DNA of 64,000 nucleotides, from positions 62,001 to 126,000 of the forward strand of contig NZ_RHOA01000001.1 of the NCBI RefSeq assembly GCF_003946545.1. The letters run 5' to 3'. Below, piece by piece: positions 41,747 through 52,996 of the stretch. This stretch comes from Levilactobacillus tangyuanensis. Lineage in GTDB: Bacteria; Bacillota; Bacilli; Lactobacillales; Lactobacillaceae. A program made the translations under genes and the position numbers. The notes below the pieces were generated by a model. It saw only the letters and a list, made by a program, of their open reading frames with translations. It was not told the DNA's origin and ran no database searches. The first letter of the stretch is position 1. The number at the start of each line of letters is the position of its first letter.

Positions 41747-41853
41747 GGGCTGGAACGCGGTGAACATGACTTCAAGCCAAAGGGCGGTCTTGAAGGTCAG
41801 TTCTGCTTAAGCGGAGCAGCCCACTCCCCTAAGGCAGTTCCACGGCTGAGCCC
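41747..41853 (+). repeat. Folded repeat, R copy 1
   Basis: Begins GGGCTGGAACGCGGTGAAC and ends ACGGCTGAGCCC, with P1 GGGCT/AGCCC. Hairpin 1 is CTTCAAG/CTTGAAG around CC-AAAGGGCGG. Hairpin 2 has CTGC/GCAG ends with TAAG...CTAAGG. The plus orientation faces R copy 5. The surrounding 41371-42055 holds no supported gene. Confidence 0.78.
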
Positions 41854-42055
41854 CGTGCGCCTCCGCTCACTAATATTGGCCATTGAGCCGACGTCGGCTT
41901 GATGGCTACTGTGCTGGGTCACGGTGTCGGGGAATCTTGAAAATTGGGTGGTTGGGTGTAGAGAGTTGGATGGGACTTAGTTTTTAGTGGGTTCCCATGC
42001 TGACGTGAAGTCAGGGCGACCGTGAGTGGCCGCAGGATGAATAATGTCGGACAGA

Positions 42056-42096
42056 TAAAAAGTACCAGCTCTTCTCTATAGAAGAAACTGGTACTC
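42056..42096 (-). terminator. Terminator downstream of the NUDIX gene
   Basis: Minus strand GAGTACCAGTTTCTTC...GAAGAGCTGGTAC followed by TTTTT. It ends a transcript that would contain R copy 5. Confidence 0.82.
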
Positions 42097-42194
42097 GCTA
42101 GTCCGATTAGGATAAGTCATGTTTAGTCGTTGTGCCTGGTTTGTGGGCTAAGCGATTGGCCATTTTTCCTGGATCTCAGTGACCGAAGGAACCC

Positions 42195-42302
42195 GGGGCC
42201 CAGCTGTGGGACCACCTTAGGCGAGTGGGCTCCTCGGCTTAGGTGGAACCGATTCTAGAGACCGCTCTTTGGCTCTAGATCGTGTTCACCGCGTTCCGGC
42301 CC
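42195..42302 (-). repeat. Folded repeat, R copy 5
   Basis: Minus strand begins GGGCCGGAACGCGGTGAAC and ends GCTGGGCCC. Hairpin 1 CTAGAG/CTCTAG; hairpin 2 CCACCTAAGCCGAG...CTCGCCTAAGGTGG keeps the CTAA/CTAA loop. Inverted relative to R copy 1 and in the 3' region of the NUDIX transcript. Confidence 0.78.
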
Positions 42303-42362
42303 ATCAAGGGTCCCGCAGGGAACGCCAGCCTTCACAGCTTAGGCTTTGACCCAGATCTGGTC

Positions 42363-42405
42363 TTTGACCCTGCGGGCCATGGTTTGGTTCTTGACCCTGC
42401 GGGTC
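42363..42405. repeat. Short direct repeats TTGACCCTGCGGG
   Basis: Two copies of TTGACCCTGCGGG 30 bases apart, and a related CCCGCAGGG just before them, between R copy 5 and the NUDIX gene. Confidence 0.6.
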
Positions 42406-42420
42406 GAAAGGATAGAGAAC

Positions 42421-42882
42421 CTAATTGTTTTCGTTGAAGTATCGTTGAACGGCGGCCAACATGTCGGTCGTTTGTTGGTTCAACAGCGGTGGTAGGTCAT
42501 CCAGTGGGAAGTATTTCAGATCCAGTGTCTCATCGGTGGACGATTCTAAGGTGTGGCCGCCAATGGGTTTAACCAGGTACAGTCGAGAAATCACTTGGGT
42601 GACGTCGCCGTTGGGATACTCAGTGAAGCCTTGGTCAAAGATACCGAGTGGCTTCACGATTTCGACATCTAGGCCAGCGTCTTCCTTATATTCACGAATC
42701 ATGGCGGCATCAAAAGTCTCGCCATATTCGAGGTAACCCCCAGGGAGGCTCCAGTTATGGGTATCCGTTCGAAGGTTCAGTAGGACCTCGTGTTGATCGT
42801 TAGCAACAATTCCCGCCGCAGCGTTAAGAATTAAGGGCTTGTGGCCAACGAGCGCACGAATTTCTTTAATGTAATTTGCCAT
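42421..42882 (-). CDS. NUDIX hydrolase
   Basis: 153 residues. The Nudix box reads GGYLEYGETFDAAMIREYKEDAG: the final Glu of the REUXEE pattern is Asp, a tolerated change. Upstream, AAAGIVANDQHEVLLNLR and NWSLPGG are typical strands. It hydrolyses a nucleoside diphosphate linked to some group, substrate unknown, possibly damaged nucleotides or sugar nucleotides. ATG 42882 follows AAGCAGG. The 3' region contains R copy 5 and a terminator. Monocistronic. Confidence 0.85.
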   Translation of the reverse strand: MANYIKEIRALVGHKPLILNAAAGIVANDQHEVLLNLRTDTHNWSLPGGYLEYGETFDAAMIREYKEDAGLDVEIVKPLGIFDQGFTEYPNGDVTQVISRLYLVKPIGGHTLESSTDETLDLKYFPLDDLPPLLNQQTTDMLAAVQRYFNENN

Positions 42883-43207
42883 GATTAGCAGACCTGCTTT
42901 CTGACTGAATTTCTTCTAGTATAGCGCACTCTGAGTATGAATTGTCCTTATTAAAGGCGTTCCTACAGTCACAATAAGTGGTAGAACTGAATGGGTGACC
43001 TGATTGATTCCCCTCATCGTTGTTCAGATGAATGATTACCTGCTCGGGTGAGTTAGGTTGGGTAACAAATGGAGGGGCCTCATCACTTATCCTAATAGGT
43101 ATCGGGTTATGATGGACACGATAACAGGTTAGGCTAACTGACTTGTTAACGAGCCTGAACGTTGGAGGAGGATAAAAAGGGTAACTCTTTCGGAAAGTCC
43201 GTGGATG

Positions 43208-43253
43208 TTGGCGGGCATGACAATTACTTATACTATATATGTAAGCGGTTACG
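43208..43253 (+). promoter_or_regulatory. Promoter with cre site for the GH65 operon
   Basis: TTGGCG (43208-43213) with TACTAT at a 17-base spacing. Immediately downstream is TGTAAGCGGTTACG (43240-43253), a cre box with one mismatch. CcpA bound there would block transcription. The remaining 42883-43207 shows no gene. Confidence 0.65.
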
Positions 43254-43295
43254 TAATGAGCGGATAATAGTCAGAATTTGGGGGAGGTTTTTGTT

Positions 43296-44714
43296 ATGAA
43301 CAAGTTACAAGTATGGAAACAAAGATTCTTCTATGGGGCGACCGACATGGCCGGTAACTTAATTTGGCAAATTGTGGGTCTGTATCTGTTGTTCTATTAC
43401 ACGACGGTCATGGGCATCTCCCCGGCCTTCGTGGGGACGCTGTTCCTGGTGGTTCGGTTCATCGATGCCTTTGACGGGGTGGTTTACGGGTTCTTAATCG
43501 ACCACACCCATTCGAAATTTGGGAAGTCACGGCCATACTTTATTTGGTTCGGGATTCCCCTTGGGATTTTAACCATGCTACTGTTCTTTAATCCCGCCTT
43601 TGGTGGCAATAAGACGGTTCAATTGGTATGGGTCGCCATTATTTACACACTATTTAGCTTAGTCTATTCTGGGGCTAATACCCCAATCACGGCCATTCTA
43701 CCAAGTCTGACCTCTGACCCTGACGAACGGACCAACCTCGCCAGTGCCCGGATGGTCATGACGAACATTGGGACGGCGGTTATCGGGGCCATCTCCTTGC
43801 CAATGGTGGCGTTCCTAGGTGGTAAGAATGCCGAACGTGGCTGGTCAATTTGGGGCATGATCATTGGGGTTGCGATCATCGTGCTCTTCTTCGGCGCCTT
43901 CATGAACCTTCACGAAACCAATTCCGTTGCCGCCGATGCAGCGGCAGACGACGATGCCAATATCAAGGGCCATTTGTCCGTGAAGGAATCGTTGAAGGGG
44001 GCCGTTAAGAATAAACCATGGGTCATCTTGAGTGTCAGCTTTATCCTGTTACAAACGTTCTGGGTTATTCGGATGCAAACGGCCGTCTACTACCTGACCT
44101 ATGTTTACCGGCGGACGGACATGATTGGCCTGTTCAATGGCCTGGTGATCGTTGCCGTCATCGGGAACTTATCCGTGCCATTCCTGAGCAAGATTATGAA
44201 GCATCGTAACGTGATGGAATTGGCCATGATTACGTTTGCGATTGGTGAAGCCATCATGCCTGTAGGGATGATGACCAAGAACCTGGTCTTTCTCTTCGCC
44301 GGTAACATTATCGCCACGATTGCCATGGGGGCGGCCTTCTCGATTGCCTTCGTCATGATTGCCGACACGGTAGAATACGCCCGGACTGAAATGCATATCG
44401 ACGAACCCGGAATCTTATCCTCAGTACCAATGGTTGGGGCTAAGCTTGGCATGGGCTTTGGGGGTGCGTTGTCCGGCTGGATTCTTTCCTGGGGTGGTTT
44501 CAAAGCCGCAGCCAAGATTCAAGCGCCGAAGGCCGTTACCGCCATTAGTACCAGCTTTATCTGGTTACCAATTATCTTGGCATTAGCGATTGTAGTCATC
44601 CTGCACTTCTACAAGTTGGATGAAGATGCGGTTGCCGCGGACAAGGCGGCCCAAGCGCCGGAAAAAGTGGCTGCTGTGGCAGCGGACGATGACAAGACAG
44701 TGAAAGCTGATTAG
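43296..44714 (+). CDS. GPH-family glycoside:cation symporter
   Basis: 472 residues from ATG 43296 (GGGGAGG upstream). Twelve helices with the GPH (glycoside-pentoside-hexuronide) marks: FFYGATDMAGNLIWQ in helix 1, FDGVVYGFLIDHTHSKFGKSRPY in the loop after helix 2, ANTPITAILPSLTSDPDERTNLASAR. It carries a C-terminal acidic/Ala-rich tail. It is the first gene of an operon with an esterase and a GH65 phosphorylase, so it should import a disaccharide. Sodium or proton coupling is not clear. Confidence 0.88.
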   Translation: MNKLQVWKQRFFYGATDMAGNLIWQIVGLYLLFYYTTVMGISPAFVGTLFLVVRFIDAFDGVVYGFLIDHTHSKFGKSRPYFIWFGIPLGILTMLLFFNPAFGGNKTVQLVWVAIIYTLFSLVYSGANTPITAILPSLTSDPDERTNLASARMVMTNIGTAVIGAISLPMVAFLGGKNAERGWSIWGMIIGVAIIVLFFGAFMNLHETNSVAADAAADDDANIKGHLSVKESLKGAVKNKPWVILSVSFILLQTFWVIRMQTAVYYLTYVYRRTDMIGLFNGLVIVAVIGNLSVPFLSKIMKHRNVMELAMITFAIGEAIMPVGMMTKNLVFLFAGNIIATIAMGAAFSIAFVMIADTVEYARTEMHIDEPGILSSVPMVGAKLGMGFGGALSGWILSWGGFKAAAKIQAPKAVTAISTSFIWLPIILALAIVVILHFYKLDEDAVAADKAAQAPEKVAAVAADDDKTVKAD

Positions 44715-44825
44715 CGTCAGCCGACCACAACTTTGGGGAGTAACAATGTGAGTTGCTGGTCGAACGGCGTTAGTGGCTTGAACCGCTAATGTCGCTAACA
44801 AATACTAAAGAGAGGGGTAATTGAC

Positions 44826-45878
44826 ATGTTGAATGACACGACAACCAAGCAATCTTTGGGGTATGCCGATGAGTTGAAACGGTTGCAACACATGCCAGTC
44901 ACGACTAAGGTAGATGGCATCAAACAATGGATTAAGGACCGCGATCCAGAGCATACCTTTGAACCATTAGTTTGGGATACGGTGGCCGAAATTGAAGAAG
45001 ATCCCCAATTACCAACGGATCTTTTCAGTCTGCGGCAAGGAACCGAAACGGCGGGGCAAAAGGATTTGACGTCCACGCCGATGAAAATTGAAATGCAACA
45101 AATTGTGGCGATGAATCGCCGGGTACGGGTGATTCGGATTGCCCGGATGGACCATTTGACGGCGGAAAAGGCCCTCATCTACTTTCACGGTGGCGCCTAT
45201 TATGGTGGCACGCCGGAAGATGTCCTGTTGGCCCTGAAGTTTGTGGCGGAACAAGCCAATTGTGTGGTCTACAACGTGGATTACGCCTTGGCCCCGGAAC
45301 AACCCTATCCAGCGGGAATTCTGGATGGGCTCGCCGTCGTTGCCGCGATGGCGCCCAACTATCACCACCTATCCTTGGGTGGCGACTCTGCCGGGGGATC
45401 GATTGCCTTGGCCGTCAGCCAACTCTGCAAGTCGATGGGGATTTGCACGATCGATAGCCACCTGCTGTTCTACCCAACGTTGATTCAGGGCTCCGATCTC
45501 GAGGGGCCACTGTGGGATGACAGTCGGATTGACGTGATTCCCAGTCAACGAGATGCGCTGCATCGTAGCTACCAACTTTTTGAACAACTGGATACGATTA
45601 TGAGTGGGTATTACGTGGCCGATCAACCGTTCGACCTGACCTCACCGCTACTATCGCCATTGTTAGCAGACCCACGGGTATTTAAGAATGTGACGGTACT
45701 GGTCGGCGAATACGACCCGTTCCGACTCCAAGACGAAGCCTTTATTCAACAAATCGGGCGGGCAACGGGAACCGGTAACTATATTCGCTATGGCGGGATC
45801 AGTCATGCCTTCCTGAACTTCACCGGGAACGTTCCGGCGGTGGAAGATGCCCTGGCAATGGGGGCACGATTGATTTAA
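44826..45878 (+). CDS. Alpha/beta hydrolase of the HSL-type (acetyl)esterase group
   Basis: 350 residues. The oxyanion motif HGGAYYGG, nucleophile elbow GGDSAGG and the late acid and His (GEYDPF, GGISHAF) mark the hormone-sensitive-lipase family. Small acyl esters are usual substrates. It lies between a glycoside symporter and a GH65 phosphorylase, so removal of acetyl groups from an imported sugar is plausible but inferred. ATG 44826 follows AGAGAGGGG. The gap to the phosphorylase is 28 bases. Confidence 0.83.
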   Translation: MLNDTTTKQSLGYADELKRLQHMPVTTKVDGIKQWIKDRDPEHTFEPLVWDTVAEIEEDPQLPTDLFSLRQGTETAGQKDLTSTPMKIEMQQIVAMNRRVRVIRIARMDHLTAEKALIYFHGGAYYGGTPEDVLLALKFVAEQANCVVYNVDYALAPEQPYPAGILDGLAVVAAMAPNYHHLSLGGDSAGGSIALAVSQLCKSMGICTIDSHLLFYPTLIQGSDLEGPLWDDSRIDVIPSQRDALHRSYQLFEQLDTIMSGYYVADQPFDLTSPLLSPLLADPRVFKNVTVLVGEYDPFRLQDEAFIQQIGRATGTGNYIRYGGISHAFLNFTGNVPAVEDALAMGARLI

Positions 45879-45906
45879 AATAGCAGCGAACTATGGGGGG
45901 ATTAAT

Positions 45907-48111
45907 GTGACTATCAAGAATTATCATTTAACATTACGGGACGTGGCGAGTCATGACGCCGAGTACCTGGAAACCGTTTTTTCCCTAGCCAATGGGCATT
46001 TTGGGGTGCGGGCCAATGACCCCATCACCGGTAATCCCATCACCGGCACGCTAATCAACGGTTTCTATGAAACTTCCCCCATCACATACGGTGAAGCGGG
46101 GATTGGCTACGCGCAGCATCATCAGACCATTTTGAATCTGCCCGATCTGCGGCATCTGACCATTTTAACGGAACACGGCCACCGGTTCACCAAGAGCCGG
46201 CGGACAACGGCCAACCTGGATTTGACTTCGGGACTCTTAACCGAAAAGTATTCCTTGGAGACCATGCAGGGCGAGAGCATTTACCTTGGCGTCCAGTCCG
46301 TGATTGGCCAGGGCCAGCGGAACTTTTGGGCCGTCAGCTACACGATTACACCTGGGAATTATCATGGTCTACTCGTTGTCAGTAAGTCGATTGCCGTGCC
46401 GGCCGAGGCCGAGGAATTAAAATCGGTCGACCCACGGAAGTCGCGGATCGCCGGGCTACCCGAGTGTGAGAGTGATTTTATCACTCAGGATCTCCAGCGT
46501 TATCATGTGAAGACGCGGCGGACACAGGAGTCCGTGACCATGTACCTCGGCAGTCTGACGCCAAATTGCAGTCTGCTGCGCCAGTCGGTCGATCTCGGCG
46601 ATGGCCGGCCGCACGTGCTCGAATACGAAGTGTACGTTGGGGATGTCGGTGAACAGAATACGATTGATCCCGCCGCCACGTTCCTGGTTAACTCATGGGT
46701 GGCCTTACAAAAGGACAGTCGGGACTTCTGGGATGATGTTTGGGAACGTAGTGAGGTGACCGTTTCCGGCAATGACGAGCTGAATCTGGCCATTCACTAC
46801 AACGTCTTTCAACTGAACCAGGCGGCCGGTCGAGATGGCCGAACCAACATCGCGGCTAAGGGACTGAGTGGCTCCGGCTACGAGGGCCATTACTTCTGGG
46901 ACACGGAAATGTATATGTTACCGTACTTCATTTACACTAACCAACCGATGGCTCGCCAACTCCTGTTTTATCGGTACCAAACCCTGCCACAGGCGCGGAT
47001 GCGGGCCCGGGCGTTGGGAATCGACAATGGGGCGCTGTTTGCCTGGCGGACGATCAATGGTGAAGAAGCCTCGCCATACTTCCCAGCCGGGACGGCCCAG
47101 TACCATATCGATGCCGACATCGCCTACGCGGTGGGCCGGTATTTCGAGATTACCCGTGACCTGGACTTTATCATTCAGTGTGGGTTTGAAATGGTGCTGG
47201 AAACGGCCCGTTTCTGGGAAAACTTCGGGTCTTGGAATCAGGTGGACACGGCCTCGCGGTTCGAATTCCACACCGTGACCGGACCCGATGAATACACGGC
47301 GCTGGTCAACAACAATTACTACACGAACCGCTTGGCTAAGCATAACTTTAACCTGGTGGTTAGCCTGGCCCATGAAATTCTAGCCGATGATCCCGATGGT
47401 CTGGAACCGTTTGGCCTCACCGAGGCCGATCTGGATGTCTTTAGCAATCTGGCCGATCACGTTTACCTGCCATACAGTCGGGAACTCCGGATCAACGAGC
47501 AGGATGATAGCTTCCTGAGCAAGCCGCGTTGGCCACTATCCAAGTCAACGCCGGAGAACTTTCCGCTCTTGCTGCACTACCATCCATTGACCATTTATCG
47601 CTACCAGGTTTCCAAGCAGGCCGATACCTTATTGGCAGACTACCTGTTTCCGGAGGATCTGAGTCTCGACCAATTGAAACGAGAGTATCGCTATTATGAA
47701 GGGGTGACCACCCATGATTCTTCCCTGTCGCGGTCGATCTTTAGCATTTTAGCGGCACGGATGGACGATCCGGAAAAGGCCTACCGTTACTTCATGGATA
47801 CGGCGCGGATGGATCTAGTCAACCTGCAAAAGAACACGGCCGATGGGCTCCATTTGGCGAATCTTGGGGGCAGTTGGCTGGCCTTAGTGGCGGGCTTCTC
47901 CGGCTTCTATGTTCAGGACGAAGTGGTCCACTTCAATAATCATCTGCCACAGGAAATTTCCGAACTGACGTATCGGATGAAGATTGCCGAAAGTGTCTTG
48001 GAAATCTCACTGACGACGACGACCACCAATGTTACCGTCATTAGCGGGCCGATCCCAACGTATGGGGTTAGCGTTAACGGCGAGATGATTTCATTGGAAA
48101 AGGTCAGCTAA
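45907..48111 (+). CDS. Glycoside hydrolase family 65 disaccharide phosphorylase
   Basis: 734 residues from a GTG with GGGGG upstream. Three-domain GH65 architecture: N-terminal beta-sandwich, linker helices, (alpha/alpha)6 barrel and a small C-terminal cap. The catalytic Glu462 is in TGPDEY, and the phosphate-binding Ser pair is in THDSSLS. The substrate loop reads GRTNIAAKGLSGSGYEGHYFWDTE. GH65 enzymes cleave maltose, kojibiose, nigerose or trehalose with phosphate to glucose-1-phosphate. Which disaccharide is not decidable by eye. No beta-phosphoglucomutase is adjacent. Confidence 0.9.
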   Translation: MTIKNYHLTLRDVASHDAEYLETVFSLANGHFGVRANDPITGNPITGTLINGFYETSPITYGEAGIGYAQHHQTILNLPDLRHLTILTEHGHRFTKSRRTTANLDLTSGLLTEKYSLETMQGESIYLGVQSVIGQGQRNFWAVSYTITPGNYHGLLVVSKSIAVPAEAEELKSVDPRKSRIAGLPECESDFITQDLQRYHVKTRRTQESVTMYLGSLTPNCSLLRQSVDLGDGRPHVLEYEVYVGDVGEQNTIDPAATFLVNSWVALQKDSRDFWDDVWERSEVTVSGNDELNLAIHYNVFQLNQAAGRDGRTNIAAKGLSGSGYEGHYFWDTEMYMLPYFIYTNQPMARQLLFYRYQTLPQARMRARALGIDNGALFAWRTINGEEASPYFPAGTAQYHIDADIAYAVGRYFEITRDLDFIIQCGFEMVLETARFWENFGSWNQVDTASRFEFHTVTGPDEYTALVNNNYYTNRLAKHNFNLVVSLAHEILADDPDGLEPFGLTEADLDVFSNLADHVYLPYSRELRINEQDDSFLSKPRWPLSKSTPENFPLLLHYHPLTIYRYQVSKQADTLLADYLFPEDLSLDQLKREYRYYEGVTTHDSSLSRSIFSILAARMDDPEKAYRYFMDTARMDLVNLQKNTADGLHLANLGGSWLALVAGFSGFYVQDEVVHFNNHLPQEISELTYRMKIAESVLEISLTTTTTNVTVISGPIPTYGVSVNGEMISLEKVS

Positions 48112-48348
48112 GGGCTTTTGATGAACGGCTTGAAAAAGATTGGTCTATATGATAGATTGAACGTGTAGTTGGAATAAAACCAGTCATATTAAAGCCACCA
48201 TGTGAGTGGCCATGTGACATTGGTATAGCTATGCGAGCGTCCCCCATTTGGAGGAGTTACGACAACTGATGGCGACCGGGGATGCCGCTAAATCGCCGTC
48301 CGAGTTAACGATGTGAATCAAGGGTTCAAAGTTAACTGAATTTTGAGT

Positions 48349-48393
48349 AAGGGAATCATCGTCGATCATGCGTGACGATGGTTCCCTTTTTGT
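48349..48393 (+). terminator. Terminator of the GH65 operon
   Basis: AAGGGAATCATCGTC...GACGATGGTTCCCTT followed by TTT. Bases 48112-48348 show no gene. Confidence 0.82.
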
Positions 48394-48399
48394 TTGGAC

Positions 48400-48714
48400 C
48401 TAGCCGACCAGCTTAAGTCCGATGGTGGCGCCTAAGATGACGACAACCCAGACCAGCTTGCGCCAACTGCGCGATTCGTTGAAGAACAACATGCCGGTTA
48501 TGACACCACCGGCGGCTCCGATACCGGTCCAGATGGCATAAGCGGTTCCCATGGGGAGCGTTCGTAAGGCCAGTTCTAGGCCGCCGAAGCTGAGCCCAAA
48601 GGCACCAATCATCATTGCCCATGGCCACCAACGATGCCGATGAAGAGCCAGGTTCATGAAGGTCACGCCGAGCATTTCGCTTAGTCCAGCGAGAATTAAC
48701 CAAATCCAGGCCAT
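48400..48714 (-). CDS. SMR exporter subunit, probable guanidinium exporter (YkkD-like)
   Basis: 104 residues, four helices, with Glu in helix 1 (LSEMLGVTFMNLAL) and GTAYAIWTGIGAAGG in helix 3. It pairs with the SMR gene just upstream: ribosome site AAGGAG inside the end of that gene, three-base separation. A guanidine-I riboswitch lies upstream. Paired SMR genes under that switch work as heterodimers exporting guanidinium. Which is C and which is D of the YkkCD pair is a guess. Confidence 0.82.
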   Translation of the reverse strand: MAWIWLILAGLSEMLGVTFMNLALHRHRWWPWAMMIGAFGLSFGGLELALRTLPMGTAYAIWTGIGAAGGVITGMLFFNESRSWRKLVWVVVILGATIGLKLVG

Positions 48715-48716
48715 GA

Positions 48717-49040
48717 TTAGTCAGCTCCTTTCGTTGTGAGTTGAAGCCCCACGATACCGACGACGAGTAGGCAGATTAAGCCAATTTTGATCAGGTTGAC
48801 CGGCTCGTTGAAGACTAGTATCCCAACGGTTGTGGTCCCGAGGGTTCCCAGGCCGACAAAGACGGCGTAGGCGGTCCCGGTGGGGATGACCCGGCCGGCC
48901 CGTATCAGAAAGTAAAAGCTTAAGTAGACCGCGATGGCCGTGACCATCCAGGCGAGAAGGGAGTCAGCGTGTTTGAAGCCGACCACCCAAGTGACCTCGA
49001 AAATGGCGCCTAACAAGACGTTTAACCAATGTTTGAACAT
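48717..49040 (-). CDS. SMR exporter subunit, probable guanidinium exporter (YkkC-like)
   Basis: 107 residues, four helices, with the first-helix Glu (GAIFEVTWVVGFKHA) and GTAYAVFVGLGTLGTT. First gene after the guanidine-I riboswitch, ATG 49040 with AAGGAGG upstream. Together with the next SMR gene it forms the two-gene exporter often found under this switch. Folded repeat R copy 2 and the riboswitch fill the space between promoter and gene. Confidence 0.83.
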   Translation of the reverse strand: MFKHWLNVLLGAIFEVTWVVGFKHADSLLAWMVTAIAVYLSFYFLIRAGRVIPTGTAYAVFVGLGTLGTTTVGILVFNEPVNLIKIGLICLLVVGIVGLQLTTKGAD

Positions 49041-49101
49041 TTTGTTTCCTCCTTACGTGGTTATCTTCTAGTTCTAAAAACAAGTTAGGCTAAGCTGGCT
49101 C

Positions 49102-49242
49102 GCCGGCAGTTGGCCTTTAAGGGCTGGAACGCCGTGAACACGACCTAGAGCCAAAGGGCGGTCTCTAGTGTCGGTTCCCCCTAAGCCGTGGAAAACACTT
49201 AACTAAGGGGGTCCCACCGCTGAGCCCCGGCCAACTGCCGGC
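49102..49242 (+). repeat. Folded repeat, R copy 2, between riboswitch and exporter genes
   Basis: Perfect 13-14-bp closing stem GCCGGCAGTTGGCC / GGCCAACTGCCGGC with the R core GGGCTGGAACGCCGTGAAC...GAGCCC inside (49121-49227). Hairpin 1 CTAGAG/CTCTAG; hairpin 2 CCCCCTAAG...CTAAGGGGG. It is transcribed antisense to the SMR operon, inside its leader. Confidence 0.8.
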
Positions 49243-49405
49243 TGCTGACTAGTCGTTGAGTACTGGGTTCAAAATCGTAAAGTCAGGCATAAATTGGCGG
49301 TCAGACACTGGTCTGGCAGCAATTTATTTGACGGTTAGTGTTTTGTCCAACTGGCTGCTCTCTTAGCCTATTAGAAGTGTTCATTCAATATTTCTTATCC
49401 TGAAA

Positions 49406-49540
49406 CGCCAAAAAGCCCGGGAAATTCTGTCGTTATCGACAAAATCTCCCGGGCTTTTATCCCTCCGTGGCCACGACATGACGTCGCAGGTTCTCTCTTG
49501 GACCTGACCCTTGCGGCGGAACCCTAGAGAACTTTTTCTT
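49406..49540 (-). ncRNA. Guanidine-I (ykkC class) riboswitch with terminator
   Basis: Minus strand carries the conserved TCTCTAGGGTTCCG, the GGTCAGGTCCAAGAGAGAAC segment and ACGGAGGGATAAAAGCCCGGGAGA in the expected order. A terminator (49408-49457), GCCCGGGAGATTTTGTCG...GACAGAATTTCCCGGGC with T run, uses the last conserved arm. Guanidine binding should prevent it and allow the SMR genes to be read. Confidence 0.9.
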
Positions 49541-49561
49541 CAGTTGGCTTTCAGTCCCAAT

Positions 49562-49590
49562 AGCTTAGCACATTCCAGAATTTCGGGCAA
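49562..49590 (-). promoter_or_regulatory. Promoter of the riboswitch-SMR unit
   Basis: TTGCCC, 17 bases, TAAGCT preceded by TG (extended -10) on the minus strand, about 15 bases before the aptamer. Confidence 0.6.
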
Positions 49591-49620
49591 GGAACGTGAA
49601 AATGAGTCATGAAAATCCGT

Positions 49621-49634
49621 TGTAAGCGTTTACA
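49621..49634. promoter_or_regulatory. Perfect cre site upstream of fructokinase
   Basis: TGTAAGCGTTTACA matches the cre consensus in full. It lies between the divergent SMR and fructokinase promoters. Confidence 0.8.
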
Positions 49635-49782
49635 AAACGCCCCATTTTGGACCAAAAATAGTGAATAAGTGATGAATTTCACGAAAAATGAAATCGATTG
49701 TATTCGGATGACACCTGGATTTTGCGCTGTTTTCTGAAAAAATCAGGGGGTAAAAACCCCTTATTTTGCAGAGAAGCGATGC

Positions 49783-49801
49783 TATACTTTAAACGTTTTC
49801 A
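49783..49801 (+). promoter_or_regulatory. -10 box and second cre-like site of the fructokinase operon
   Basis: TATACT at 49783 overlaps the upstream end of TTTAAACGTTTTCA (49788-49801). On the reverse strand this is TGAAAACGTTTAAA, one mismatch from cre. A short GGGGTAAAAACCCC hairpin with TTATTTT lies at 49746-49767. Confidence 0.6.
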
Positions 49802-49872
49802 AGATGACTGAACCGAGATCGTCAAACAGATGCCGCGGGTCGAACCCCGGCCAACAGATGGAGGTAACGAGT

Positions 49873-50748
49873 ATGCAACTCGGAAGCATTGAAGCTGGTG
49901 GAACAAAATTTGTTTGTGCAGTCGGTAACGAAGATTATCGGGTGCTCGACGAAGAATACATTCCAACCACAACACCAGAGGAAACTCTGAGTAAAACCAT
50001 TGCTTATTTTAAAAAGTTTCCGGACGTGAAGGCCATTGCCATTTCGTCCTTTGGACCCATTGAACTGCGGCGTAATTCGCCAAAGTACGGTTTTATCACC
50101 AATACACCTAAGCCGGGTTGGTCCAATACCGATTTCGTTGGTCGGCTGAAGCAAGACTTAGACGTCCCCATGTTTTGGACAACCGACGTGAATGGCTCGG
50201 CATACGGTGAATACGTGATGTCGACGCTGTTTAACGAAAATGTTGGATCACTGGTCTACTTCACCATTGGGACTGGGGTCGGTGCTGGGGCCATTGTTAA
50301 TGGCAACTTCATTGGCAGCATGGGGCATCCTGAAATGGGACACGTGCGGTTGAAGCGCCACCCAGACGACCTGGACTTCAAGGGCATTTGCCCCTTCCAT
50401 GGGGATTGCCTGGAAGGCCTGGTTAGTGGCCCAACGTTTGATGCCCGGCTGGGTAAGCCCGGCAAGGATGTTCCACTGACGGATCATGTCTGGGACATCA
50501 TGGCGTACTACGTTGCCCAAGCGGCCTTGCAAGAAACCTTGATGTTGCGGCCAGACAAGATTGTCTTTGGCGGTGGCGTGGTTAGCGAAGCCTTCCTCGT
50601 GAAGGTTCGCGCCGAGTTCGCCAAGTTGTTAAATGACTATGTTGAAGTCGGCAACCTGGATGACTACATTGTCATGCCAGCCGTTAAGGATAACGGTTCG
50701 GCAACCGTCGGCGATTTCGCGATGGCCTTGATTGAATATAACAAGTAA
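49873..50748 (+). CDS. scrK: ROK-family fructokinase
   Basis: 291 residues from ATG 49873 with GGAGGT eight bases upstream; 23 earlier codons are unsupported. ATP-binding SIEAGGTKFVCAVG opens the protein. The ROK zinc site is H-x-C-x2-H-x2-C-like (GHVRLKRHP, CPFHGDCLEG) and Asp in TTDVNGSA is the catalytic base. It phosphorylates fructose to fructose-6-phosphate in the cytosol. It leads an operon with mannitol dehydrogenase, so fructose can be either phosphorylated or reduced. Two cre sites precede it. Confidence 0.88.
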   Translation: MQLGSIEAGGTKFVCAVGNEDYRVLDEEYIPTTTPEETLSKTIAYFKKFPDVKAIAISSFGPIELRRNSPKYGFITNTPKPGWSNTDFVGRLKQDLDVPMFWTTDVNGSAYGEYVMSTLFNENVGSLVYFTIGTGVGAGAIVNGNFIGSMGHPEMGHVRLKRHPDDLDFKGICPFHGDCLEGLVSGPTFDARLGKPGKDVPLTDHVWDIMAYYVAQAALQETLMLRPDKIVFGGGVVSEAFLVKVRAEFAKLLNDYVEVGNLDDYIVMPAVKDNGSATVGDFAMALIEYNK

Positions 50749-50766
50749 GAGAGGGAGATTTAATTT

Positions 50767-51768
50767 ATGAAAGCCTTAGTTTTAACTGGAAAAGAAAAGA
50801 TGGAGATTCAGAACGTTGCTACCCCAGAGGTTAAGTCTAACGAAGTCTTGGTTAACACCGCTTACGCTGGGATTTGTGGGACCGACCGTGCCTTATATGC
50901 CGGCCTTCCAGGCTCTGCCAACGCCGTTCCTCCAATTATCTTAGGTCATGAAAACTCCGGGATCGTTGCCGCTATCGGTAGCGACGTCACCAACGTTAAG
51001 GTTGGCGACCGTGTGACCGTTGACCCTAACATCTACTGTGGCCAATGCAAGTACTGCCGGACTGACCGTCCAGAACTCTGTGACAACCTGTCTGCCGTTG
51101 GGGTTACCCGCGATGGTGGCTTAGCAGAATCCTTCACGGCGCCTTCATCCGTGGTCTACCCAATTCCAGACAGCGTGTCATTGAAGTCAGCTGCAACGAC
51201 GGAACCCATCTCATGTGCCGTTCACGGAATTAAGTTATTAGACTTGACCCCTTATCAAAAAGCCTTGGTTATCGGTGATGGCTTCATGGGCCAACTCTTC
51301 GTTCAACTGTTACAAGCTCAGGGTGTTCACCAAGTTGACTTTGCCGGGATTTCCGATGAAAAGTTAGCCTTCAACAAGGAACACTTTGGCGTTACGAACA
51401 CCTACAACACGACTCGCGAGAGCATTCCTGCCGACTACGACGTGGTTATCGAGGCCGTTGGTTTACCACAAACCCAAGAACAAGCCGTTGAAGCTACTCG
51501 TAAGGGCGCCCAAGTTCTGATGTTTGGTGTTGGGAAGCCAGACCAAACCTTCTCAATGAACACTTACGAAGTTTACCAAAAGCAATTAAAGATCCAAGGG
51601 GCCTTCATCAACCCATACGCTTTCGAAGATGCCATTGCATTGTTAGCTAGCGGTCAATTGGACGTTGAATCCCTGATCAGTCATGAAGTCAGCCTGGAAC
51701 AAGTTGAAGATGTTTTGACGGGTAAAGTTGCACATGTCAGCAAGGCTGTTGTTAAAGTTTCCGACTAA
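50767..51768 (+). CDS. mdh: Mannitol 2-dehydrogenase, zinc-dependent
   Basis: 333-residue medium-chain dehydrogenase. MKALVLTGK, AGICGTDRALYAGLPGSA, GHENSG and VDPNIYCGQCKYCRTDRPELC match the mannitol dehydrogenase known from Leuconostoc and heterofermentative lactobacilli. Catalytic zinc ligands are Cys in ICGTD, His in GHENSG and the later Glu. Four Cys of the structural zinc lobe are present. It reduces fructose to mannitol with NADH, regenerating NAD as an extra electron sink. It follows the fructokinase by 18 bases with GAGAGGGAG. Codon use is that of a highly expressed gene. Confidence 0.9.
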   Translation: MKALVLTGKEKMEIQNVATPEVKSNEVLVNTAYAGICGTDRALYAGLPGSANAVPPIILGHENSGIVAAIGSDVTNVKVGDRVTVDPNIYCGQCKYCRTDRPELCDNLSAVGVTRDGGLAESFTAPSSVVYPIPDSVSLKSAATTEPISCAVHGIKLLDLTPYQKALVIGDGFMGQLFVQLLQAQGVHQVDFAGISDEKLAFNKEHFGVTNTYNTTRESIPADYDVVIEAVGLPQTQEQAVEATRKGAQVLMFGVGKPDQTFSMNTYEVYQKQLKIQGAFINPYAFEDAIALLASGQLDVESLISHEVSLEQVEDVLTGKVAHVSKAVVKVSD

Positions 51769-51787
51769 GTAAAGGTGGTTGAGGATT

Positions 51788-52558
51788 GTGAGAGTTGAAC
51801 CAGCAAGTAATTTGAATGCTGACGCACCAAAGGCAGAAACGAGTCAGCGAACGATTTCAATGTCTAAGGCGATTGGTTACTTTGCCTTATCGCTCGTGAT
51901 TAACTCGGCGGGGAATGTCTTGACCCTGGTGACCAGCGCCAAGATTCACCCCTCATTCTTGGGGGCCGCTTACTGGTCAGCTGCTGAAGCTAACCTCGGA
52001 ACGGCATTTCATTGGAATTTGTTCTGGGCCTTCTTGATTATGGGGTTCCTGACCTCAGTTCTGAACGCGGTCTTGATTCATCACTGGGATTGGAAACGGA
52101 TTGCCGGCAACATGATTTTCATGGTGCCGTTCTCCGCTTTGATTCAGGTGTTCGAAGACTTCTTCGATGGCAAGTATCCGGCAATTTTTGGGGGATTACC
52201 GGATGCGCACAGTTTGGGCATGATTATCCTATATATTTTCCTAAACTTCTTAGGGGTAGCCTTCATCGCGGTGGCCATTTCCATTTATCAACGGGTTAAC
52301 CTGGTCTTACATCCAGCCGATGATCTGATGCAAATTCTGCGGTTCCGCTACTGCCATGGGAATGCGGCCCTGGCGATGTGGTTCTCTTACATTCCACCAA
52401 CTGTGATGGCGATTGTTGCCATCATCATCACCCGTCAATTCAGCAACTTTGGGTTGGGAACGGTCTTTGCCTTCCTTGCTCAAGGGGGTATCACGGGGAT
52501 TGCCGACCGGGTGATCTTCCCTCGGCTGAAGCACCAAGCAGTCGATGTCGGCAAATAG
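51788..52558 (+). CDS. YczE/YitT-like membrane protein
   Basis: 256 residues from GTG 51788, with AAAGGTGG ten bases upstream; earlier frames start at a TTG too close. About six helices after a 28-residue polar head (SMSKAIGYFALSLVINSAGNVLTLVTSAKI). The AYWSAAEANLG and GKYPAIFGGL segments fit the YczE/YitT-like group, often annotated as possible sugar permeases. It follows the mannitol dehydrogenase within 20 bases and could import or export sugar alcohol, but that is inference from position. Confidence 0.65.
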   Translation: MRVEPASNLNADAPKAETSQRTISMSKAIGYFALSLVINSAGNVLTLVTSAKIHPSFLGAAYWSAAEANLGTAFHWNLFWAFLIMGFLTSVLNAVLIHHWDWKRIAGNMIFMVPFSALIQVFEDFFDGKYPAIFGGLPDAHSLGMIILYIFLNFLGVAFIAVAISIYQRVNLVLHPADDLMQILRFRYCHGNAALAMWFSYIPPTVMAIVAIIITRQFSNFGLGTVFAFLAQGGITGIADRVIFPRLKHQAVDVGK

Positions 52559-52615
52559 GTTTTGATTCTGGCAGCCGGGAGGTTCAGGTCTGCGAGCCTG
52601 TCCGCCTTGCCGGTC

Positions 52616-52740
52616 GTCAAATATGGGCTGGAACGCGGTGAACGCGGTTATGGGCCACAGACCGGTCCCATAATCCGGTTCTGCCTAATCCGAGAATAAC
52701 GCTCGGCTAAGGCAGTGCCACGGCTGAGCCCATATTTGAC
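52616..52740 (+). repeat. Folded repeat, R copy 3
   Basis: Perfect 13-bp closing stem GTCAAATATGGGC / GCCCATATTTGAC. Hairpin 1 TTATGG/CCATAA; hairpin 2 CTGCCTAATCCGAG...CTCGGCTAAGGCAG with the CTAA/CTAA internal loop. Confidence 0.82.
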
Positions 52741-52821
52741 TTCCCTTTCAGGCTGATATTGTTGTCAGAACTATTCAGTAAGAAATTAATGACGTTACGA
52801 GTGTTCAGAGCCGTGAGGGCG

Positions 52822-52948
52822 GCTCTGGGAGGGCTCAGCCATGAAATTTCTCTTAGCCGAGTGATTTACTCGGGTTAGAGAAAGGTCAGTCTTTGAGACG
52901 TGGCTTGCGGCTCAAAGCTGTGCCCATGGCGTTCCAGCCCTCCCGGAG
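52822..52948 (-). repeat. Folded repeat, R copy 4
   Basis: Minus strand closing stem CCGGGAGGGCT / AGCCCTCCCAG. Hairpin 1 CTTTGAG/CTCAAAG; hairpin 2 TTTCTCTAACCCGAG...CTCGGCTAAGAGAAA. It stands inverted to R copy 3, 82 bases away. Confidence 0.82.
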
Positions 52949-52996
52949 CAACCGGCAAGGCGCCAGGCCCGTAAACATAAAAAGGAGCCAGTAAAA

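Follow-up and report, generated by a model that had tools for sequence, protein, structure and literature searches.

Inverted pairs of folded intergenic repeats are characteristic of the REP/BIME/REPIN system, with its Y1 transposase RAYT; in invertons, a short segment located between short inverted repeats is flipped, which makes it phase-variable; and the terminal repeats of parvoviruses are T-shaped, consisting of an outer stem and two small hairpins, inverted at both ends. The function and the spread of the common small folded repeats of bacteria are poorly understood. In the Firmicutes, MITE-like repeats have been described as BOX, RUP and SPRITE in pneumococcus, bcr1 in Bacillus cereus and Efa-1 in Enterococcus, (PMC3049150, PMC2267715).

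The family that we describe here is represented by five copies (R1 to R5) in the window, i.e. in the whole stretch of 64,000 nucleotides of Levilactobacillus tangyuanensis (contig NZ_RHOA01000001.1, positions 62,001 to 126,000) that has been analysed. It resembles the Firmicutes repeats, as they have been described, in being short, non-coding, intergenic, multicopy and strongly folded, with inverted terminal repeats; judged by those descriptions, it is set apart by its ends, which are facing three-way-junction modules with covarying arms, by its in-place flips between sister species and by its spread over 14 genera. Of the features of MITEs, terminal inverted repeats (in Levilactobacillus), non-coding sequence, dispersed copies and insertion polymorphism are present. 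With REP/BIME/REPIN it shares the inverted folded pairs between genes; kinship with REP/RAYT has been considered and rejected, PF01797 being found in none of four copy-bearing genomes and in two genomes without copies. As in an inverton, the same segment is located in both orientations at one locus (10 of 25 classed loci, between two species); unlike an inverton, the unit occurs tens of times per genome. The likeness to parvovirus ends is one of geometry only, the element being here chromosomal and bacterial, without a replication protein. No description of this lactobacilli family was recognised in the literature searched, outside which most subscription papers lie; the Lactobacillales motifs included in a list of structured RNAs are in Rfam or otherwise named, and the one family that a survey of folded repeats gives for L. 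johnsonii is a coding one.

Copies in the window and the unit that they bound

The first-pass annotation had described five copies with a common core and two hairpins; both the places and the shared architecture are borne out, the core positions being confirmed by the covariance model. It had also given each copy a unique, pairing outer stem, which is true for three of the five (R3, R4 and R5, with the stems quoted for R3 and R4 being exact), because R1 and R2 are without a clear long outer stem. The copies and their surroundings are located as follows:

41747..41853, plus strand: core of R1 (118.3 bits, covariance model), facing R2
42196..42302, minus strand: core of R2 (122.8 bits, covariance model), facing R1 across a gap of 342 bases
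48717-49040, minus strand: SMR gene, at one flank of R3
49102..49242, plus strand: R3 with its perfect outer stem of 14 bp (core 49121-49227, 115.7 bits)
49444-49538, minus strand: Guanidine-I riboswitch, at the other flank of R3
52603..52962, no strand: whole R4/R5 unit of 360 bases, i.e. R4, R5 and the boundary repeats
52603..52613, plus strand: left boundary repeat CGCCTTGCCGG of the R4/R5 unit
52616..52740, plus strand: R4 with outer stem GTCAAATATGGGC/GCCCATATTTGAC (core 52625-52731, 114.8 bits)
52822..52948, minus strand: R5 with outer stem GGGAGGGC/GCCCTCCC (core 52831-52940, 82.3 bits), facing R4 across a gap of 100 bases
52952..52962, minus strand: right boundary repeat CCGGCAAGGCG of the R4/R5 unit, the reverse complement of the left repeat

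Four of the five copies fold better than their shuffles (z of -3.22 for R2, -5.79 for R3, -7.23 for R4 and -7.94 for R5), the exception being R1 (-0.38).

R3 is without a facing partner. Among 120 distinct close pairs of copies, 112 are facing, the remainder are tandem and none is divergent; with repeated units kept in the count, 120 of 128 are facing. In Levilactobacillus, the units are often bounded by the inverted repeat CGCCTT(A/G)CCGG, which is located at both ends in genomes G023 and G025 and in the R4/R5 unit; in G023, the facing pair lies between CGCCTTACCGG and the reverse complement of that repeat, and a weaker TCATN is located further out. The counts of the motif CGCCTTRCCGG are 68+69 for G023, 6+6 for G000, 4+3 for G034 and 21+15 for G029, compared with 3+3, 2+2, 1+1 and 3+3, respectively, for the control pattern, i.e. 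the motif read backwards. The boundary repeat was not found at R1/R2 or at R3, two mismatches having been allowed in the search at R1. Within the units, no transposase or recombinase gene was recognised among the ORFs of the wide gaps, which were viewed by eye; a candidate autonomous element, located between boundary repeats about 2 kb apart in G023, was rejected, as it held an MFS-like ORF and no transposase.

Most copies form facing pairs at the two ends of a larger inverted-repeat unit, which behaves as a small mobile and invertible element would; the family is therefore of a mobile-element kind. This modifies the first-pass interpretation, a selected RNA or folded DNA, of which the fold itself stands.

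Distribution, gain, loss and inversion

In the genome of the window, 33 copies reach a score of at least 56 bits, and 33 of the 35 genomes of the genus have from 10 to at least 67 matches (67 candidates having been scored per genome). Genomes G022 and G031 carry no copies. The model search that had been suggested for the Lactobacillaceae has revealed copies well beyond the window: with nine candidates scored per genome, which makes the counts lower bounds, matches occur in at least 95 of 397 genomes and in at least 14 of 40 genera, overturning our earlier assumption of a family restricted to one genus. None of 23 genomes from other families of the order has matches. A pattern scan of named genomes gives at least 80 loci, those listed being from Levilactobacillus, Lactiplantibacillus, Lacticaseibacillus, Lapidilactobacillus, Companilactobacillus, Schleiferilactobacillus and one uncultured Lactobacillus. 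The phage searches gave no copies; of the plasmid searches, one gave a single plasmid with a 68-base match inside an annotated hypothetical protein, another gave five plasmids with a partial copy, and two further ones gave no copies.

The occupancy of corresponding places differs between species. The R4/R5 unit is kept, in the same orientation, in G034, the nearest species; in G030 and G003 there is no unit, and hardly any space is left between the two genes. At the place in G034 that matches R3, the copy is missing or has been deleted. A unit of Lactiplantibacillus nangangensis is absent in the corresponding gap of G223, G201, G126, G275, G405 and G304, while G390 holds an altered form of it. 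At the compared loci, whose flanks are too diverged for a target-site duplication to be read, none was seen, nor was there a clean, base-level empty site among them.

The orientation of the units also differs, as is seen between the sister species G023 and G025 (Levilactobacillus; about 96% identical, mostly 94-97% in alignment). From the 60 units of G023, 32 are located outside the G025 stretches used and two are too short; among the 26 comparable units, 15 have the same orientation (five weak) and one is unclear, while 10 of the 25 that could be classed are inverted in place (four weak). Three of these inversions have been read base by base; in one, the locus-specific spacer is an almost perfect match once it is reversed, and the flanks of the inverted units retain the boundary repeats. 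With 14-18 bases, the repeat would be a short substrate for general recombination. No inversion was found among the 20 matched copies of G000 and G034, the matching having been confined to the same strand.

We tentatively prefer, at a little under an even chance, the reading of the family as a MITE-like, non-autonomous, invertible intergenic element with folded ends, whose fold would be read in one strand by a protein supplied in trans. This reading builds on the facing copies, the boundary repeats of Levilactobacillus, the many places occupied, the presence and absence of units, the inversion between sister species and the constraint on resident copies described below; its part that concerns anatomy, insertion and inversion is probable. 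The mechanism is one that we infer, since neither a transposase or recombinase nor a duplication of the target came to light: at each end, the fold would be read in the single strand that runs outward to the boundary repeat; a transposase or recombinase supplied in trans would move the unit, and would flip it when acting on both ends of one unit; and a good fold would be needed for spread, so that the arms would stay matched while their sequence drifts. Should the flipping also take place within a strain, the units could act as switches of transcription near many genes.

Covariation, strand and constraint of the fold

The selected three-way-junction fold with real covariation, as originally proposed, is supported. 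RNAalifold on the five window cores gives 38 pairs, of which 15 have a pair-keeping change on both sides; in 150 aligned copies from many species, both-sided change is seen in 34 of the 38 pairs. Pairing is found in 92.1% of the cells (70.8% in shuffled alignments), 1219 cells are changed on both sides (363 in shuffled alignments) and the covariation score is 0.534, compared with 0.149 after shuffling and 0.033-0.083 with slid partners; these values come from an alignment fitted to the covariance model, which favours structure, and related sequences can exceed shuffles. None of the five values was reached by the shuffles (0 of 500). A lack of covariation in a larger alignment had been named beforehand as refuting, and this test came out in favour of the original proposal. 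Since 16 of the 150 rows of set A7 are also present in A3, A5 or A6, the four sets of copies are not fully independent.

That the family had not been recognised as a named one agrees with Rfam: at the gathering threshold, the window gives the Guanidine-I riboswitch and a tRNA only, with no copy matched; the window copies give no match at E<=5, and the copies from other genera give no copy-overlapping match of meaningful score at E<=10.

In order to read the strand of the fold, A-C mismatches have been counted against G-T wobbles on the strand of the first-pass annotation (the reader's strand). The ratios of A-C to G-T are 112:40, 105:21, 12:0 and 134:50 for cells, and 67:35, 62:22, 7:0 and 106:43 for changes along a spanning tree, while in the control, the Guanidine-I riboswitch as it occurs in this genus, 46 G-T stand against 7 A-C. 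The strand bias of the copies, 2-3:1 in tree events, is weaker than that of the riboswitch; in one set out of three, the unpaired bases are biased to a similar degree (2.3-fold in A5, 1.2 in A3 and 0.87 in A7), and the single changes in resident copies have none (22 A-C and 20 G-T). The excess of G-U over A-C expected of a structured RNA is thus missing from the reader's strand, is 2-3:1 on its complement in tree events, and is not seen in the residents. The wobble statistics argue against an RNA from the reader's strand; because A-C exceeds G-T there, they point to the complement, running outward in each unit, if a single strand folds. An earlier reading, in which the wobble bias would be nil and the folding hence confined to DNA, was abandoned in view of the riboswitch control. 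The step of single-strand recognition in the preferred reading is possible rather than probable.

A bolder form, which we consider quite unlikely, would have family-wide mobile elements with T-shaped folded termini, recognised as single-stranded DNA (or together with RNA) by one enzyme in trans, and invertible intergenic sites numbering of the order of a hundred per genome that are flipped and occasionally copied; if true, this would be the first case of parvovirus-like folded ends used in bacteria for transposition and inversion. 

The element of lactobacilli, so often flipped between two close relatives, suggests a type of mobile or switching DNA that has not been described before. Covariation, orientation, insertion and in-place inversion can all be followed in public genomes of bacteria from food and gut, so that it becomes testable in laboratory lactobacilli whether RNA or DNA folds and what moves or flips the unit.

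Resident copies are under constraint, their rate of change being lower than that of the sequence around them. Between G000 and G034 (substitutions only), they are 94.2% identical in the core and 93.5% in the outer stem, compared with 81-84% in the non-ORF flanks and 88-91% in the ORFs, and 4.4% of their paired bases are changed against 11.7% of the unpaired ones; between G023 and G025, the core is 97.8% identical and the outside flanks 88-95%. Of the 36 G000 rows, 20 have an accepted G034 partner (one of them swapped for an alternative candidate in this comparison), 11 have no flank match and five are below 0.75 identity (two truncated or cut), so that the conservation figures lean slightly upward. 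This constraint leaves room for a role in the host, be it that of an RNA or that of an insulator in both directions. It also speaks against the preferred reading, in that an element that was nothing but a parasite could do without the conservation of its resident copies.

The nearest paralogs in G023 (distance <=10) have 24 double and 54 single paired changes, compared with 5 double and 76 single in resident ortholog copies (Fisher p 6e-5), an excess that may in part reflect age; when four of 21 resident pairs are left out (deletions, wrong partner or replaced subfamily), the other 17 have 21 single changes and one double.

Alternative readings

A structured RNA within transcripts (a leader, a 3' end or a processing element), in which each direction of transcription has a copy of its own and the outward-reading copy is the one that folds properly, is a rather unlikely alternative. 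The covariation is like that of real RNA, the double to single changes of the copies being 422:184 and 70:14 next to 28:18 in the Guanidine-I riboswitch (a control that led us to drop the view that an RNA would not have so many double changes); the resident copies are conserved, the A-C excess on the reader's strand is a G-U excess on the other, and R3 is located in a leader, between the riboswitch and its pump gene, where the favoured strand has the same sense as that gene. Against this, the wobble bias is far below that of the riboswitch and absent in residents, a match in Rfam is absent, and the units have no fixed sense relative to a gene, because they flip between sister species.

It is improbable that the host keeps the units between its genes as insulators or terminators of transcription in both directions, with a fold that works as RNA from either strand. 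Such a role would account for the enrichment between convergent genes, where 57 units are located, with 118 between tandem and 30 between divergent genes (205 units, repeated loci kept in), compared with 150, 581 and 204 of the other gaps (p 1.5e-4), as well as for the symmetry of the resident changes; it fits less well with the majority of units, which are between tandem genes, with those between divergent genes and with the sister species that are without units at the corresponding place, and avoidance of promoters alone would yield the convergent bias.

The copying of one arm from the other, by template switching in quasi-palindromes, would keep the arms matched without selection on the fold, and near-identical paralogs that differ at one matched pair only (e.g. 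C-G to A-T at outer pair 11), together with the transversion type of about half of the double changes, are in its favour; it is nevertheless very improbable, being unnecessary in view of the similar ratio of double to single changes in a true RNA, the riboswitch, and double changes are few in the residents.

Distribution of copies and boundary motifs

The source genome's 33 strong members of the element family (56 bits or more with the covariance model) are clustered: 28 of them sit outside contig C1, the majority on C7 and C32, with C16 also among the contigs concerned. Along contig C1 of genome G023, the boundary motif CGCCTT(A/G)CCGG is scarce between about 0.93 and 1.80 Mb, where only two of the 68 plus-strand sites of an apparently complete listing are found; this sparse stretch, which corresponds to one third of the chromosome, may be the terminus half.

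The riboswitch next to R3

Window 49102-49538 region: R3, between the Guanidine-I riboswitch and the SMR transporter gene
Window 49444-49538, minus strand: Guanidine-I riboswitch

The riboswitch should control the SMR transporter gene.

Reduced and possibly related forms

Comparison of L160 (15550-16160) with L202 reveals a minimal unit, common to G023 and G025, in which the two boundary repeats enclose almost no interior. On a Levilactobacillus brevis plasmid, a 68-base portion of the family (L187, 3001-3068) falls within an annotated hypothetical protein. A distinct repeat, present twice at one locus of genome G033 (L079, 900-1560; GGTTCGCTCAGRGCGTTGCGGCC...CTATCCGGAAAC), carries CTTAAC/CTAAG elements and is perhaps a distant relative.
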